A stretch of DNA of 64,000 bases from Planctomycetota bacterium. Its GTDB lineage: Bacteria; Planctomycetota; Phycisphaerae; Phycisphaerales; SM1A02. Positions 2,692 through 61,632 of the stretch are shown here, in pieces. Where the stretch lies: the NCBI GenBank assembly GCA_017859745.1, contig JAFMML010000011.1, forward strand, positions 1-64,000, read 5' to 3'. The notes under the pieces are model-generated. The model searched no databases and was not told the DNA's origin. It saw nothing but the letters and a program-made list of their open reading frames with translations. The first letter of the stretch is position 1. Each line of letters opens with the position of its first letter. Position numbers and translations under genes: made by a program.

Positions 2692-2876
2692 CTGGTCGCT
2701 CGTTCCTGAGGAGGAGGCGTGGTTTGGACCACGGCCGCCGTCGGATTCGGGGCGGACTCCGGTCGCGGGACGCGGGTGCGGAGCCCAACTGCGGACGAAG
2801 CCTCGGACGATACCGCCCCCGCTTCGAGGGTGTCAACGAAGGTGCCTCCGAGCGAGGGGCGTTATGCTGCGTTCGT

Positions 2877-3131
2877 TCGAGGTTCGCCGGGATCGGGTCC
2901 CGGCCGTCGCGAGCTTCGCGACGAGGGAAGGCGGTGAAAAACCGCCGCGGACGCGCCGCCGTGAAGGGCGGATCGGTTCGGAAGCTCGCCGAAGCGCCGA
3001 CGTGGATGGACACGCCGGCGCCGAAGACGAATCCGATCGATCCACGCTTGGATCACCGCATGGCCACTGACCCCGATGGGTTGGGAAGGCCGATCCGAAG
3101 CGAACGCCCCAAGCCGGAAGACCTGCCTCGA
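2877..3131 (+). promoter_or_regulatory. Cobalamin (B12) riboswitch
   Basis: The conserved elements of the cobalamin aptamer appear in order. GGGAAGGCGGTGAAAAACCG begins at 2925, followed by GCGGACGCGCCGCCGTGAA (family pattern GCGGACCCGCCACTGTGA). The ATGGCCACTG box lies at 3060-3069 and GGGAAGG at 3083-3089. The 3' B12 box AAGCCGGAAGACCTGCC is at 3111-3127. A closing P1 helix can form between TCGAGG (2877-2882) and CCTCGA (3126-3131). Several G/C changes against the consensus fit the high G+C genome. It reads in the direction of the gene at 3421, where adenosylcobalamin or another cobalamin should repress expression, as is usual for this class. Confidence 0.9.
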
Positions 3132-3420
3132 CGGTTCGGGTCGACGCCCCCGCGACATGGGGTGGTCGAACGGTGTCGGAGTCGAAGGCCGATTCGGTCG
3201 TTGCTCCGCGACCCCTCCCCCCGCCTCCTCAGGAAGGCGGAAGGATTCGAGGGCAACCTCGTCGGTGCCGGTGCCGCGTCGCGGCCCGAAGCCCGGCGGA
3301 GTCCCCTCGCATCGAAGGGACACCGCTCGCCCGCCGCTCCACCTCGTGAAGGCGTCCGCCCCCGTCGTCGGTCCGCGGCTCGACCGACGCCGGCTGGTTC
3401 GCCGCACGGAGTGTGCATCC
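3132..3420 (+). other. Long leader between the cobalamin aptamer and the first gene
   Basis: No convincing gene is present in these 289 bases. Imperfect pairing is possible between GGTTCGGGTCGACGCCCC (from 3133) and GGGGTGGTCGAAC (3159-3171) directly after the aptamer, which may be part of the expression platform. A second GC-rich stem region lies around 3200-3300. The start codon at 3421 is preceded by a weak CGGAG at about 3405-3409. Whether control is by termination or by masking translation cannot be told by eye. Confidence 0.4.
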
Positions 3421-38611: not shown

Positions 38612-39745
38612 TTGGAAGCGACGGAACTGACCAGCCGCCCCGTGCACCACGACCGCGGAACCACCGCGGGCGAGGGCACCAAGAACTGGCGGTCGTACCT
38701 CAAGGCCTCGATCGAACTTGGAGCGAGCGATCTGATCCTCAAGGTCGATCAGCCGCCCCGCGTCCGAGTCCGGGGTTCGTTGAAGCCCCTGTCCACGGGC
38801 GCGATCCCGATGGACCTGATGTTCCAGATCGCCAAGGACGTGCTGGACGTCAACCAGTACGAGATCTTCTGCCGCAAGGGCTCGATCGACTTCGCCTACG
38901 ACTACGACGATCGCAACCGCTTCCGAGTGAATCTGTTCATGGCCCGGGGCAAGCCGTCGTTCGCGGCCCGACTGATCACCTCGAACATCAAGCGGTTCGA
39001 GGACCTCTACCTTCCGCCGGTGCTCGGCGACATCGCGATGAGCGCCCAGGGGCTCATCCTGTTCTCCGGCGTGACCGGTTCGGGCAAGAGCACCTCGATC
39101 GCCTCGATGCTGCAGTACGTGAACGAGCGCAAGCGCGTCCACATCGTCACCATCGAGGACCCGATCGAGTACATCTTCAACGACGACAAGGCGATCATCA
39201 ACCAGCGAGAGGTCGGGATCGACTGCGTCAACTTCAACGAGGCGCTCCGAGCCCTCGTTCGCGAGAATCCCGACGTGGTCCTCGTCGGCGAGATGCGCGA
39301 CTACGAGACGTTCGAGGCCGCCATCCGCGCCGCCGAGACCGGTCACCTCGTGTTCGGAACCATCCACGCCAGCTCGGCCTGGCAGACCTTCGGTCGCATC
39401 TACGACCTCTTTCCCGAAGGCGAACGCGATCAGATCCGCAAACTGCTCGCGTACAACCTCCGGGCGATCGTCTACCAGAAGCTGCTCCCGACCCTGCACG
39501 AGGACATCGCCCGGATCCCGGCCCTCGAGATCCTGATCAACACCCCGATCGTCCAGAAGTACATTCTCGAGGCTCGCGAGGGCGAACTGCTCGAGATCAT
39601 CAAGCAGAGCCACGAGGAGGGGATGCTGGACTTCACCAGCGCCCTCGTGAACCTCGTCGAGTCGGAGTACATCCACCACAAGGTGGCGCTCTCCAACACG
39701 CCCAAGCCCGAGGAGCTCAAGATGCGCCTCAAGGGCATCTCCTGA
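38612..39745 (+). CDS. pilT: PilT-type pilus retraction ATPase
   Basis: A 377-residue hexameric ATPase of the PilT/PilU class. Visible motifs are Walker A GVTGSGKST (about 152), the Asp box TIEDPIEYIF, Walker B NPDVVLVGEMRD and the His box HLVFGTIHASSAW. The C terminus (LLPTLHEDIARIPALEIL) matches PilT, and LPTLH replaces the usual zinc-free PilT region. TTG 38612 is supported by GGAG ten bases upstream and by the family length. It is first in an operon with two membrane proteins. Normally PilT powers pilus retraction at the inner-membrane platform. Confidence 0.9.
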   Translation: MEATELTSRPVHHDRGTTAGEGTKNWRSYLKASIELGASDLILKVDQPPRVRVRGSLKPLSTGAIPMDLMFQIAKDVLDVNQYEIFCRKGSIDFAYDYDDRNRFRVNLFMARGKPSFAARLITSNIKRFEDLYLPPVLGDIAMSAQGLILFSGVTGSGKSTSIASMLQYVNERKRVHIVTIEDPIEYIFNDDKAIINQREVGIDCVNFNEALRALVRENPDVVLVGEMRDYETFEAAIRAAETGHLVFGTIHASSAWQTFGRIYDLFPEGERDQIRKLLAYNLRAIVYQKLLPTLHEDIARIPALEILINTPIVQKYILEAREGELLEIIKQSHEEGMLDFTSALVNLVESEYIHHKVALSNTPKPEELKMRLKGIS

Positions 39746-39779
39746 CTCCGGACCCGCACGCTCGAGGGAGGCCCCCCCG

Positions 39780-41489
39780 GTGCCCATCGCGTTCGAACCG
39801 AACATCCCATCCATCCTTGCGGCGACCGCCGACGCGGCGTTCCTCGCAAGCTTCATCAAGCCGGTGCTGCTGCTGGCGTCGTTCCTCCCCTTCGCCTGGG
39901 TGATCTCCTCGCGATTGGAGCCCGACGCCCGCATCAATCGGATGAACGTCGCGGCGTGGAACGCGGCGTTCGTGGGCACCGCCATCGCGGCGCTCGCTGC
40001 GGCACTTCTGATCCCGATCTTCTGGGTGGGCTGGCCGATCGCGGTTCTGCTGCTCGTCGGTGTGCTCTTCGCCTATTGGAAGATCCGCGACGCCAAGGTC
40101 CCCGAGGATCGCCGCTTCAAGCTCTTCAGCGGCGAGATGCAGGCGAAGCTCGAGGCCCGGCGGGCCCGTCGGGGCATCGCCGCGGCGCAGATCGCCTTCA
40201 CGGGCCCCGATGGGGTGGCGCGCAACGTGCCCGAAAAGGACGACGAGCTCTTCCCGATCCACATGCGGGTGGAGGATCTGCTCGTTCCGGCACTCGAGCG
40301 TCGTGCGAGTCGCGTCGAGATCCTGCCGGGCCGCAACGGCATCGTCGCGTCGGCGCTCGTCGACGGGGTCCGGGTGGCGCTCGCCAAGCTCTCCCCCGAG
40401 GAGACGCCGCCGATCCTGGACTACATCAAGCGACAGGCGGACCTCGACGTCGAGGATCGCCGCAGGCTTCAGGAGGCCGAGTTCAGACTCCGAGGGCCGA
40501 CCGGCGATGCCGCGGTGACCCTGACCACATCCGGGTCCTCCGCGGGGCAGACCCTCCGGCTGGAGTTCGATCGGCGAACCCGCCTCGGCCGCAGCTACGA
40601 CACCCTCGGCCTGCATCAGAACCAGAAGGCCGTGCTCGCCCCGCTCACCGAGCCGGAGCACCGTCATGGCGTGGTGCTGGTGACGGCGCCGGCGGGACAG
40701 GGACTGACCACCACCGGATACGCGCTGCTCGGCCGGCACGACGCGTTCACGTGCAACATCAAGACCCTCGAGGAGAAGGTCGAGTTCGATCTCGAAGGCG
40801 TCGACCATGTCGGCTGGACCACGTCCGATCCGACCACGCCGTTCGCCACCACGCTGCAGTCGATGCTGCGTCGCGATCCCGACATCATGCTCGTCGGGGC
40901 GACCAACGAGCCCCGGGTGCTTTCGACGGCTGCTGGACCGGGGCCGGATGGACCGCTTCTGTACGTCCTGATGCAGCAACCCGGCGTCGCCGCCGCGATC
41001 ACCGAGTGGTGCCGAAGCGTCGGCGATCTCAAGGCCGCATCCCGAGGTCTGCGGGCGGTGACCACGCAGCGCCTCATGCGGACGCTCTGCCCCAACTGCA
41101 AGCAGCCCGCCCAGACCGCCCCCGATCAGTTGCGGAAGCTCGGCATCCCGGAGCGGGCCGCCGGACAGATTCAAAGAGCCGTTGGCAAGATCCAGCCGGC
41201 CCGCAACCGCATCGAGGACTGTCCGGTCTGTCAGGGATCCGGCTACCTCGGTCAGGTCGCCGTCTTCGAGGTGATGCCAGTCGACGACGACGTGCGGGCT
41301 CAGTTGCTCGCGGGGGATCTCAAGGCCGCCGTCGCCGAGGCCCGCCGCAAGAAGATGCTGCTCCTTCCGGAGGCGGCGCTCGCCAAGGTCGTCGCCGGCG
41401 AGACCAGCCTCGAGGAGTTCGCCCGCGTCTTCGCCCCCAAGTCCGCCGCTCGCCCCTCCGCCCCCCGTGGGAGCGCCGCCAAGTCATGA
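39780..41489 (+). CDS. Membrane-anchored GspE/PilB-like protein with degenerate ATPase motifs
   Basis: A 569-residue protein; GTG 39780 follows a GGGAGG site. Residues about 24-96 hold three hydrophobic segments (FIKPVLLLASFLPFAWVI; AFVGTAIAALAAALLIPIF; WPIAVLLLVGVLFAYW). The rest aligns by eye with GspE/PilB: RASRVEILPG for ASDIHIEP, and VVLVTAPAGQGLTTT (about 300-314) for ILVTGPTGSGKTTT. The Walker A Lys is Leu. Walker B is RRDPDIMLVGATNEP, with the catalytic Glu replaced, and the His box is gone. The tetracysteine zinc element of GspE remains (CPNC...CPVC). It is probably a non-catalytic, membrane-bound partner of the ATPase next door. Confidence 0.85.
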   Translation: MPIAFEPNIPSILAATADAAFLASFIKPVLLLASFLPFAWVISSRLEPDARINRMNVAAWNAAFVGTAIAALAAALLIPIFWVGWPIAVLLLVGVLFAYWKIRDAKVPEDRRFKLFSGEMQAKLEARRARRGIAAAQIAFTGPDGVARNVPEKDDELFPIHMRVEDLLVPALERRASRVEILPGRNGIVASALVDGVRVALAKLSPEETPPILDYIKRQADLDVEDRRRLQEAEFRLRGPTGDAAVTLTTSGSSAGQTLRLEFDRRTRLGRSYDTLGLHQNQKAVLAPLTEPEHRHGVVLVTAPAGQGLTTTGYALLGRHDAFTCNIKTLEEKVEFDLEGVDHVGWTTSDPTTPFATTLQSMLRRDPDIMLVGATNEPRVLSTAAGPGPDGPLLYVLMQQPGVAAAITEWCRSVGDLKAASRGLRAVTTQRLMRTLCPNCKQPAQTAPDQLRKLGIPERAAGQIQRAVGKIQPARNRIEDCPVCQGSGYLGQVAVFEVMPVDDDVRAQLLAGDLKAAVAEARRKKMLLLPEAALAKVVAGETSLEEFARVFAPKSAARPSAPRGSAAKS

Positions 41490-43150
41490 GCATCGCCCTC
41501 AACCTTCTCGTCATCGCCCTCGTCCTGCTGATCGCCTACTGGTGGGCGAATCAGGGCGCGTTCGGAGGCTTCCTCCATCTGCTGTGCGTGCTCGCGGCCG
41601 CGACCATCGCGTTCGCGGTGTGGGAGCCGCTTTCGCTCTGGCTCCTTTCGCTCGGGGGACTTCGCGTCTATGCCTGGGGCATCGGCCTGCTGCTGCCGTT
41701 TGCGGTGATGCTGTTCGTCTTCCGCCTCGCCAGCGATCGCATCGTCCCGGACAACCTCAACTTTCCGGCATCGCTCAACTACGTCCTCGGCGGCGCCTTC
41801 GGCGCGGCCTCCGGCATCGTGAGCATGGGCATCGTGCTGCTCGGCGGTGGTCTGCTGCAGAGCCAGTCCGAGCTGCTTGGGCACGCGGGATGGTCGCGAT
41901 CCTCGCAGTCGCAGGGCCGTCCGGCAGCGCCCTCGCAAGGACTCTGGCTTCCGGCCCACACGATCACGGCCGACATCTTCGCGAACCTCAGCGCAGGCGC
42001 GATGTCGCCCGAGAGCGGATCGGCGAGCCTGAAGAACCGGCAGCCCGACTTCGATCGCGTCTCGATGGGACTCGCCCGGGACGGAGCCTACGACGGCAAG
42101 AGCGCCATCGCGATCGCGCCAAGCGCCGTCGAACTGCTCGGCGCCGCCTTCAGCCCCGCGATGACGCTGCCTGCCGCACTCGGCGGCAGCCAACCGATCT
42201 ACGCGGTGGGCCTCCAGTTCAGCCAGCCCTCCTTCGACTTCGGCGAGCAGTTTCGCATGTCCGCCTCGCAGGTTCGCCTGATCGGAGACTCGAACCGCGA
42301 CCAGACGGCCCCGACCGCACACCCGGTCGGATGGACCTCGGCACTCGCCGGCGGCGGGCGGGGGTTCTTCGGTTTCGACGACATCTCCAACTACCTGACC
42401 AGCCCTCCGGGGCAGCAGCAGGTCGATGCGTGGCTGCTGTTCAAGGGCAACGAGCTCGAAGGCGCAGCGCCTCGATTCGTGCAGGTCAAGGGCCTTCGCA
42501 TCCCCATCACCTCGATCGAGCAGCTCGATCCCGGCGCCATGATGGCGAAGGTCATGGGTCAGGGCGAAGTGCAGCCGCCGGAGTTCGATCCGTCGCTGCG
42601 CACGGTGGCGGGCAACGACCTCAAGGTCGACAACACCCTTGGACAGCTGCAGCTGTCGCGCAACGACATCCCCGGCATGCGGGAGACCGACCAGTACCTG
42701 ACCGAAGGCAAGGGCGAGTTCCCCTCGAAGTCCCCCCGACGAGTCAACAAGAGCCTGAAGATCAAGGGCATCTTCGAGCCGGAAGGCACCCGGGTGGTCC
42801 AGCTGAACATCACCCGCGGACGCAGCCCGATCGACATCTGGGACTCGCCGGCTCGCGAGCAGGCCGGCGCCGACGCGGGGCTGTTCCTCGTCGACGCCGA
42901 GGGTCGCAGCTACGCCCCGATCGGCTACTTCTGGAAGCGCCGCAACGAGGGCGAGGTCGAGATCATGCTCGATCCGGTGCGAGGTGTTCGGTCGATCGAC
43001 GGCTTCCCCTCGCAGGGCGCGGCCACGGCGGACGAACTGTTCGCGATCTACCGGGTCGGCGCCCAGTCGAAGCTGAAGGCCGTCCGCCTCGGCGACATCC
43101 AGATCGCCAACGCCGACACCGACGTCGCGGCCCAGAACGGCCGTCGCTGA
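41486..43150 (+). CDS. Large membrane protein with CvpA-like N terminus
   Basis: A 554-residue protein starting inside the stop codon of the preceding gene (ATGA overlap). The first 120 residues hold four hydrophobic segments (LNLLVIALVLLIAYWW, LHLLCVLAAATIAFAVW, YAWGIGLLLPFAVMLFVF, GAASGIVSMGIVLLGGGLL) arranged as in CvpA/colicin-V-production proteins. A long extracytoplasmic part of about 420 residues follows with no recognised motif; it contains LPITS-like beta segments (VQVKGLRIPITSIEQ) and a Glu/Asp-rich C-terminal domain. Its operon with pilT and the pseudo-ATPase suggests one membrane assembly. Function is unknown. Confidence 0.75.
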   Translation: MSIALNLLVIALVLLIAYWWANQGAFGGFLHLLCVLAAATIAFAVWEPLSLWLLSLGGLRVYAWGIGLLLPFAVMLFVFRLASDRIVPDNLNFPASLNYVLGGAFGAASGIVSMGIVLLGGGLLQSQSELLGHAGWSRSSQSQGRPAAPSQGLWLPAHTITADIFANLSAGAMSPESGSASLKNRQPDFDRVSMGLARDGAYDGKSAIAIAPSAVELLGAAFSPAMTLPAALGGSQPIYAVGLQFSQPSFDFGEQFRMSASQVRLIGDSNRDQTAPTAHPVGWTSALAGGGRGFFGFDDISNYLTSPPGQQQVDAWLLFKGNELEGAAPRFVQVKGLRIPITSIEQLDPGAMMAKVMGQGEVQPPEFDPSLRTVAGNDLKVDNTLGQLQLSRNDIPGMRETDQYLTEGKGEFPSKSPRRVNKSLKIKGIFEPEGTRVVQLNITRGRSPIDIWDSPAREQAGADAGLFLVDAEGRSYAPIGYFWKRRNEGEVEIMLDPVRGVRSIDGFPSQGAATADELFAIYRVGAQSKLKAVRLGDIQIANADTDVAAQNGRR

Positions 43151-59741: not shown

Positions 59742-61571
59742 TCAGGCCACCGACTCGGTCACTCGGAAGACCTCCTCGATCGTCGTCTTCCCGCGTCGAA
59801 CCTTGTCGAAGCCGTCCTCGCGGAGGCTGACCATGCCCTCTTCGAGGCAGGCTCGTCGGAACTCCGTGATGTTGGGGTTCCCCGCCACCGAGTCGCGAAG
59901 GCGGTCGTTCATCCGGAGCAGCTCGTAGATGCCCAGGCGTCCCGCGTATCCGGTCCGACGACAGGTGTCGCAGCCGTCTCCGTGACGCACCGACGCGGGA
60001 TCGACGCCATGCCGCTCGAGCAGCGCCGTCATCTCCTCGCCGGGATTCGCAGGCGTCGAGCACTCCGGACAGATCTTGCGGACCAGCCTCTGTGCGAGCG
60101 TGGCGGTGAGCGCCGCGCCGACGAGAAACGGCTCGACTCCGATGTTGATCAGACGAGTGACGGCTCCGGGCGCGTCGTTGGTGTGCAGCGTGGACAGCAC
60201 GAGATGGCCGGTGAGCGCCGCCTGGATGGCGGTGACCGCCGTCTCGAGATCGCGGATCTCGCCGACCATCACCACGTCGGGATCCTGGCGAAGCAGGCTC
60301 TTGAGGGCCTTCGCGAAGGTCATCCCGATGCGGTCGTGGGTCTGGATCTGGGTGATGCCGCCAAGGTGGTACTCGACCGGATCCTCGACGGTCGAGACGT
60401 TCATGCGGCTGATGTCCATCTTGCGGATGGAGCTGTAGAGCGTCGTGGTCTTGCCGGAACCCGTCGGACCGGTGACGAGGATGATGCCGTGGGGCTGTGC
60501 GATCAGCTCGTTCCAGGTCTTCAGCGTCTTCTCCGCGAATCCGAGATCCTCGAGGGACACCTGGATCGAACGGTTGTCGAGCAGACGCATGACCGTCTTC
60601 TCGCCGTGGGGCGTGGGCACCGTCGACACGCGGATGTCGAGTTGCCGGCCCGACACGGTCGCCCGAATGCGACCGTCCTGCGGGAGCCGTCGCTCGGCGA
60701 TGTCCATGTTGGCGATGATCTTGATGCGACTGGTCAGGGCGGCGTGCATGCGGCGCGGAGTGTCCATGGCATCGAACAACACGCCGTCGATCCGAAATCG
60801 GACCCGAAGCTGGCGCTCGCCCGGCTCGATGTGGATGTCCGATGCACCTTCCTTGAGCGCGGTCTGGATGATGTGGTTGACGAACCGGACGACGGGCGAA
60901 CTCTCCGCCTGCTGTTCGATGTCGTCGGCGACCTCCTCCTCCTGCTGCACCTCGACGTCGTCCTCCGCCGCATCGGCGAGGAGCTTCGAGAGATCCTGCT
61001 CCTCCTCGCCGCCGTCGAGGGCTTCGAGCACCGCCTGCAGGTCGCCGGTCGTGATCAGGACGTGCCGGACGTGAGCCCCGCCGAGACGTCGCTTGACGTC
61101 GTCGAGCAGGAAGACCTCGTCGAGCCTCGTCGTGCCGACCACGATCCGCCCAGCCTCGACGGCGATCGGCAGCACCTGATGCCGGCGGCAGTAGTCGGCC
61201 CCGAGCTTCGAGATCAGATCGGCATCGGCCTGCTCGGCCGGCACCCGGCGGAAGGGGACGCCGGCGAGTTCCGCCGAGATCTCCTGGACCTTCGCCTCCG
61301 CGACGCCGAGGCCGACGAGAATGTCGCCGATTCGCCGCCCCGGGCTCTGCCGGTGGAGGCGGCGAGCCGTCGCCAGGCGTTCCCCGTCGAGTTCGCCCGC
61401 AAGCAGCAGGCGATCCGCCACGTCCCCGTCGGCACCTTCGGCCGACGGTTCCGGCGTGTACAGATCGCTCAACAGGCCGTCGTCGGCGTCGAAGGGCCGG
61501 ACGTCCTCGCCGTCGTGTTCCTCTCGAACCGATGGCGAGTTGGCGGCGTCATGGGGGTTCCCCTCGGGCAT
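59742..61571 (-). CDS. Type II secretion / type IV pilus assembly ATPase (GspE/PilB)
   Basis: A 609-residue hexameric ATPase. An N-terminal acidic region and MshEN-like domain (about 55-190; RRIGDILVGLGVAEAKVQEI) is followed by the ATPase core: ASDIHIEPGE, Walker A VTGPTGSGKTTT (about 370), Asp box TVEDPVEYHL, Walker B RQDPDVVMVGEIRD, and the tetracysteine zinc element CPEC...CDTC. All catalytic residues are present, unlike the membrane-anchored homologue at 39780. It is the last gene of the pilus cluster read from the window edge, 61 bases after the PilP-like gene. Confidence 0.94.
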   Translation of the reverse strand: MPEGNPHDAANSPSVREEHDGEDVRPFDADDGLLSDLYTPEPSAEGADGDVADRLLLAGELDGERLATARRLHRQSPGRRIGDILVGLGVAEAKVQEISAELAGVPFRRVPAEQADADLISKLGADYCRRHQVLPIAVEAGRIVVGTTRLDEVFLLDDVKRRLGGAHVRHVLITTGDLQAVLEALDGGEEEQDLSKLLADAAEDDVEVQQEEEVADDIEQQAESSPVVRFVNHIIQTALKEGASDIHIEPGERQLRVRFRIDGVLFDAMDTPRRMHAALTSRIKIIANMDIAERRLPQDGRIRATVSGRQLDIRVSTVPTPHGEKTVMRLLDNRSIQVSLEDLGFAEKTLKTWNELIAQPHGIILVTGPTGSGKTTTLYSSIRKMDISRMNVSTVEDPVEYHLGGITQIQTHDRIGMTFAKALKSLLRQDPDVVMVGEIRDLETAVTAIQAALTGHLVLSTLHTNDAPGAVTRLINIGVEPFLVGAALTATLAQRLVRKICPECSTPANPGEEMTALLERHGVDPASVRHGDGCDTCRRTGYAGRLGIYELLRMNDRLRDSVAGNPNITEFRRACLEEGMVSLREDGFDKVRRGKTTIEEVFRVTESVA

Positions 61572-61632
61572 CGTCGCGGTCTCCTCTCGAATCGGCCCTC
61601 CGGATGGAGCGGCCGGCGTGCCTCACCTGCCC

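Follow-up and report, generated by a model that had tools for sequence, protein, structure and literature searches.

The locus studied here raises the question of whether a pilus-type motor that appears to have lost its ATPase chemistry is a decaying gene or a maintained part of a membrane machine, and, in the latter case, which part it might play. For motor ATPases of type IV filament machines, activity is taken to be part of the definition, and their docking to the membrane is among the least understood steps of assembly. A review presents extension ATPases as hexamers of the cytoplasm in which the Walker, arginine-finger and His-box residues are conserved (PMC10191384). In the window, i.e. 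the whole 64,000-nucleotide stretch of planctomycete DNA that was analysed, a gene for a GspE/PilB-like protein with an altered active site is enclosed by a pilT gene and a gene for a CvpA-like membrane protein. A sequence-only reading had proposed that the middle protein is a membrane-fixed platform which docks or regulates an ATPase hexamer. The features considered are the following (coordinates of the window, strand, feature, basis):

38612–39748, +, PilT/PilU-family ATPase with intact motifs (TIGR01420 above cut-off, motifs, tree)
39780–41489, +, predicted membrane-anchored GspE/PilB-like pseudo-ATPase, 569 aa, GTG start (PF00437, PilB/GspE fold match, 41-row motif map)
39861–40085, +, N-terminal membrane region, residues 28–102: one segment, then a hairpin-like stretch around the invariant Pro79; it replaces the soluble N1 domain (mean hydropathy, 39 orthologues)
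40683–40718, +, Walker A remnant TAPAGQGLTTTG, Lys to Leu309 (Lys in 0/41 Phycisphaerae orthologues)
40875–40910, +, Walker B / catalytic Glu remnant DPDIMLVGATNE, A374 (Glu kept in 10/41)
40947–40985, +, His-box remnant D390, P392, Q399 (H413 equivalent in 3/41, H420 equivalent in 0/41)
41079–41081, +, Arg434, equivalent of PilB R455, inter-chain contact at the nucleotide-free interface (Arg in 41/41 Phycisphaerae; role from PMC5424180)
41088–41231, +, tetracysteine zinc element C437/C440/C481/C484 (lost only in L089/L090)
41486–41489, +, ATGA shared by the stop of the second gene and the start of the third
41486–43150, +, CvpA-like membrane protein: four hydrophobic segments at the N terminus, then a variable C-terminal part of ~400 aa (PF02674 in 34/35 orthologues, hydropathy)

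The three genes and the fold of the middle protein

The product of the first gene scored 392.9 bits against TIGR01420 (cut-off 319.1) and carried all motifs (Walker A GVTGSGKST, GEMRD and TGHLVFGTIHAS), so that an intact PilT indeed stands ahead of the GspE-like gene. The TTG at 38612 is just the first possible start of this gene; homology begins around residue 29, and the true start probably lies downstream. In the PilT tree the operon PilT was placed in a paralogue clade apart from the two other PilTs of the same genome.

For the middle protein, the T2SSE profile PF00437 matched residues 158–549 with an E value of 1.9e-33 and thereby spanned the N2 and C-terminal domains, TIGR02533 (GspE) gave 162 bits, and PDB chains of PilB, PilF and GspE were matched by sequence. 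An AlphaFold2 model derived from a 13-row alignment had a mean pLDDT of 73, with most of the core above 80 and the N-terminal membrane part, which rests on three sequences and is of low confidence, mostly below 55. Foldseek analysis of this model returned Geobacter PilB, Thermus PilF and Vibrio GspE as best matches with E values down to 5.6e-34 (PilB) over about 395–396 aligned columns. Profile and fold comparison thus agree on the GspE/PilB core that had been claimed, and the middle protein is a member of the GspE/PilB (T2SSE, PF00437) family by descent; neither Pfam nor NCBIfam holds a described family for it beyond T2SSE and its relatives. A wrong reading frame or an annotation error was rejected as explanation, since the orthologues are full length and nearly all free of internal stops. 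The zinc element of the middle protein is of a type found typically in assembly and not in retraction ATPases (PMC5061722).

The soluble N1 domain, which binds PilM/GspL, is absent from the middle protein, and hydrophobic segments are found at the N terminus instead, one at residues ~28–46 and a long one at ~60–102 centred on Pro79. The long stretch fits two helices; the three transmembrane segments counted in the sequence-only reading are therefore likely, while a count of two is possible.

The third gene, which overlaps the second by the ATGA already noted there, encodes four N-terminal hydrophobic segments as judged by hydropathy, and a low-confidence model agrees (AlphaFold2 without alignment, pLDDT 37.6, discarded for structural use). 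The window protein scored 25.7 bits against PF02674 (Colicin_V), just below the cut-off of 29.3, the profile was matched at E <= 0.1 in 34 of 35 orthologues, and the protein of locus L158 reached 47 bits. Sequence searches returned no related solved structure for this protein and no Pfam or PDB match for its C-terminal part (window 41920–43150). The latter part is fast evolving (alignment columns 900–1060), and a motif around LVDAEGRSYAPIGY recurs in it across families.

Residues lost and kept in the ATPase core

For the residue analysis, 41 Phycisphaerae orthologues including the window protein were placed on the numbering of Geobacter metallireducens PilB, with residue roles taken from PMC5424180. 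A canonical GspE/PilB ATPase with intact motifs, which is encoded at window 59745–61622 on the minus strand, served as reference row. The Walker A lysine (Lys331) was kept in none of the 41 proteins and was replaced by Leu, Val, Arg, Ile, Thr, Met or Ser. The loss of the lysine is common to the 41 Phycisphaerae orthologues, but the exchange to leucine, whose conservation had been put up for checking, is not. The catalytic E395 and the Mg-binding E357 were each retained in 10/41, the arginine fingers R271 and R286 in 7/41 and 8/41, and the His-box residues H413 and H420 in 3/41 and 0/41. In the window protein itself the catalytic glutamate, both arginine fingers and the His box are missing: VGEIRD has become VGATNE (Glu to Ala at 374), and both histidines are gone (P392, Q399). 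The glutamate that had been reported lost as that of Walker B is indeed absent, although in the GspE/PilB family it is properly the catalytic Glu following Walker B (PMC5424180).

In contrast to these losses, the P-loop G330, the R455 equivalent and the first Glu of the Asp box were found in 41/41 orthologues and the zinc cysteines in 39–41 of 41. Apart from the naming of the glutamate, the predicted combination of a lost active site (Leu309, A374, P392/Q399) and a kept tetracysteine element was thus recovered. Three of the four zinc cysteines were lost in L089:9067-10806 and L090:9101-10825 (genus g46, family f2).

What the middle protein lacks of a functional motor is the Walker A Lys, the set of catalytic Glu, arginine fingers and His box, and the soluble N1 domain. 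The residue comparison supports its assignment as a membrane-anchored GspE/PilB homologue that is predicted to be catalytically dead, in the following termed pseudo-ATPase. The role of R455 in PilB is to link subunits at nucleotide-free interfaces; the residues lost here act at nucleotide-bound ones (PMC5424180). From the retention of the former and the loss of the latter we infer that the pseudo-ATPase may still assemble, in a nucleotide-independent state.

In 12 of the 41 orthologues a lysine was observed at the equivalent of window residue 305, four residues before the lost Walker A Lys; it could be a relocated Walker A lysine in those lineages.

Retention in Phycisphaerae, gene neighbourhood and relatives outside the class

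When the window protein was searched at a threshold of E <= 1e-40, a match was obtained in 141/151 genomes of the family and in 286/298 genomes of the class Phycisphaerae from 27 families (family codes of the tool used); a few of the 286, among the weakest class matches, may be paralogues. Among the matches listed, nearly all cover both the membrane part and the core, and the canonical GspE/PilB paralogues of the window genome reach only 8.7e-35 against the window protein. A pseudo-ATPase orthologue was present in 225/231 near-complete genomes of the class. The dN/dS values of the gene for near-relative pairs were 0.057, 0.155 and 0.296; the pseudo-ATPase is maintained by purifying selection.

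The sequence-only reading had allowed that relatives with an intact Walker A would make this copy just a decayed gene. Such relatives do exist in other classes (see below), but the copy is not decaying, and decay confined to the window genome is so improbable as to be negligible because of the class-wide retention (286/298 genomes, 27 families), dN/dS values well below 1 (0.057–0.30) and the fixed structural residues.

In four genomes of family f22 (G292, G303, G357 and G384) up to three pseudo-ATPase matches each were found at E <= 1e-40, possibly representing extra copies.

The CvpA-like gene directly follows the pseudo-ATPase gene or its orthologue on the same strand in 60/61 loci, the exception being L148; the locus L113 is truncated by a contig end. 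PilT is encoded directly upstream in 44/61 loci. In families f7 and f14 and in most f50 loci the same PilT lineage is placed elsewhere in the genome. For f10, G215 (f18) and G181 (f20) the best PilT belongs to other clades, and the operon-type PilT seems to have been lost, while the pseudo-ATPase and the CvpA-like gene are kept; a dedicated PilT would consequently not be essential. The co-occurrence of the three genes is thus tight for the CvpA-like gene, but looser for PilT, and owing to this looser linkage a PilT-centred reading of the unit is only one option.

Upstream of pilT, hisF (named from its sequence, not by profile search) was found in 19 loci from 11 families (L079–L118, L144–L163). 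These loci come from Phycisphaerae as well as from other classes, which speaks for hisF-pilT-gspE*-cvpA as the gene order of a common ancestor. In the window, hisF is not upstream and a guaB-like gene on the opposite strand is found there instead.

The three-gene unit contains no pilin, platform or secretin genes. The GspF/PilC platform is encoded in every near-complete genome of the class, and this universality renders the co-occurrence with filament genes uninformative.

A phylum-wide profile search yielded orthologues with the membrane part in 40/351 genomes outside the class, belonging to eight families (f50, f57, f71, f91, f100, f117, f118 and f119), and 20 of these outside loci were studied. 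In 14 of them (f50, f118, f57, f71, f119) Walker A, GEIRD and the His box are all intact, whereas in the remaining six (f91, f100, f117) the ATPase motifs are not. The intact orthologues share the N-terminal anchor of the pseudo-ATPase and largely its neighbours, with a cvpA-like gene adjacent in 13/14 loci, an operon pilT in 7/14 and hisF upstream in some. They differ from it in the complete set of ATPase motifs (14/14) and in the CvpA partner, which is mostly short (~200–290 aa), as in most loci outside the class, but enlarged in Phycisphaerae. With the same anchor and neighbours, they would give the starting state of the pseudo-ATPase. The R455 equivalent is Arg in all 14 active and all six other dead orthologues as well.

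The distribution of the dead forms bears on the number of losses. In the RpoC tree f91, f100 and f117 form one group (99/98), which is joined with f50 (93/92) and f118 (100/100), and the tree of the operon PilT likewise unites f91, f100, f117, f50 and f118 (100/99). The ATPase-core tree alone places the dead f91/f100/f117 rows nearer to Phycisphaerae, albeit weakly (80/87); long branches make this tree unreliable by itself, and the species arrangement, in which the planctomycete rows are held together, was not rejected by the core data (p-AU 0.32). A single loss of catalysis is disfavoured on these grounds. As the RpoC and PilT trees nest the second dead lineage among active ones, we prefer the reading that catalysis would have been lost at least twice, given vertical descent.

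Possible role of the pseudo-ATPase and alternative explanations

That a presumably dead motor is retained throughout a class suggests its conversion into a component with a structural or regulatory function, and the proposed docking or regulation of an ATPase hexamer would be plausible. Tentatively, and with a probability that we put somewhat below even, we favour a membrane-tethered, nucleotide-independent GspE-like ring that is complexed with the CvpA-like protein and docks an active pilus motor. The protein would descend from an assembly ATPase of the GspE/PilB type that had exchanged its soluble N1 domain for membrane helices and whose gene stood in the order hisF-pilT-gspE*-cvpA. Two planctomycete lineages, Phycisphaerae being one of them, would then have lost ATP turnover independently, but neither the fold nor the zinc element nor the arginine presumed to join neighbouring subunits without nucleotide. 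Most likely, the protein would work as an inert oligomer, probably ring-shaped like GspE, which its own helices and the CvpA-like protein fix to the inner membrane from the cytoplasmic side. As docking ring or brake it might place or swap an active motor on a type IV filament machine, this motor being the unit's own PilT where present and another PilT or PilB elsewhere. Within this scheme we infer the oligomeric state and the CvpA contact, while docking of the motor and the role in a filament are conjecture; the presence of GspF/PilC in every near-complete genome would make such docking possible throughout the class, although co-occurrence lends it no support.

Compared to known GspE/PilB assembly ATPases (PF00437; PDB 5tsg, 5zfr, 5oiu, 4ksr, 4pht), the pseudo-ATPase shares the N2 and C-terminal ATPase domains over ~400 residues, the tetracysteine element and the Arg455 equivalent, but lacks the Walker A Lys, catalytic Glu, arginine fingers and His box and carries membrane helices instead of soluble N1. 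In analogy to GspL/EpsL and PilM, which anchor the assembly ATPase, it would fasten a ring of the GspE/PilB type to the inner membrane; here, however, the anchor is part of the ATPase-like protein itself, and GspL/EpsL and PilM are not known to be homologous to it. PilU, the accessory PilT-dependent retraction ATPase, is likewise an extra motor paralogue alongside PilT, but is an active ATPase without zinc element (PMC5061722, PMC6762196) and without membrane segments. The third protein resembles CvpA (Colicin_V, PF02674) in its four N-terminal hydrophobic segments and in profile matches ranging from sub-threshold to clear, and differs by the long variable C-terminal region in Phycisphaerae and by its linkage to pilus-type ATPases, not to purF.

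In the open-access literature we found no earlier account of a pilus ATPase that is linked to CvpA and either dead or anchored in the membrane, no paper joining CvpA, PilT and Planctomycetes, and neither "degenerate Walker A" nor "pseudoenzyme" together with type IV pili; the only open-access paper naming both CvpA and Planctomycet was a rhizobacteria genome study. A presumably dead, self-anchored motor is kept class-wide, its intact sister form exists in related classes, and catalysis was apparently lost a second time independently. This constellation would set what the ring does structurally apart from its ATP hydrolysis and offer a natural system for testing the function of a motor ring without ATP turnover. 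Furthermore, a consistent partner is found for CvpA, a membrane protein that is widespread yet little understood.

The main rival to the docking ring is an envelope complex centred on CvpA and not tied to pili. The CvpA-like protein would form its core and serve in envelope maintenance, export or stress resistance, with the pseudo-ATPase as cytoplasmic scaffold and PilT, where kept, as energy supply. The tightest and most conserved linkage of the unit is that to the CvpA-like gene (60/61 loci), PilT has moved or been lost in several families, and in Phycisphaerae the CvpA-like protein has a much larger C terminus than the forms of ~200–290 aa found elsewhere; E. coli requires CvpA to resist deoxycholate (PMC6705877). 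Nevertheless, the middle protein is still recognisable as an assembly-type ATPase with zinc element and has PilT as partner, which argues for a filament-type machine, and we consider the CvpA-centred complex rather unlikely, though to be taken seriously. Bolder, and unlikely in our view, is an undescribed envelope machine of Planctomycetota in which anchored PilB and PilT would act as opposing motors on a CvpA-type platform, and in which the anchored PilB would have independently become a dead stator or clutch in two lineages while the machine persisted.

Little probability is assigned to a pseudo-ATPase that binds nucleotide without hydrolysis, for instance as sensor of the ATP level, or whose P-loop lysine is replaced in place or by a shifted residue. 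The invariant Gly330 equivalent (41/41) with the adjacent Thr/Ser kept, an Arg at the lysine position in 10/41 orthologues and the lysine at position 305 in 12/41 would be consistent with these readings. The residue in place of the lysine, however, changes freely between orthologues (L, V, R, I, T, M, S), most orthologues also lack the Mg-binding Glu, the arginine fingers and the His box, and the window protein has neither Arg309 nor Lys305.

Still more doubtful are mixed hexamers with active PilB or GspE, in which dead subunits would complement their active neighbours with residues acting in trans or slow down the ring. The invariant core fold and inter-chain R455 equivalent speak for such mixing, but it is precisely the trans-acting arginine fingers (R271 and R286 equivalents) that are lost in most orthologues, together with the His box, which makes this reading less likely; moreover, an otherwise soluble ring would need to fit the membrane anchor.

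Elsewhere in the window, a cobalamin riboswitch was detected at 2863–3144 (RF00174, 53.6 bits).
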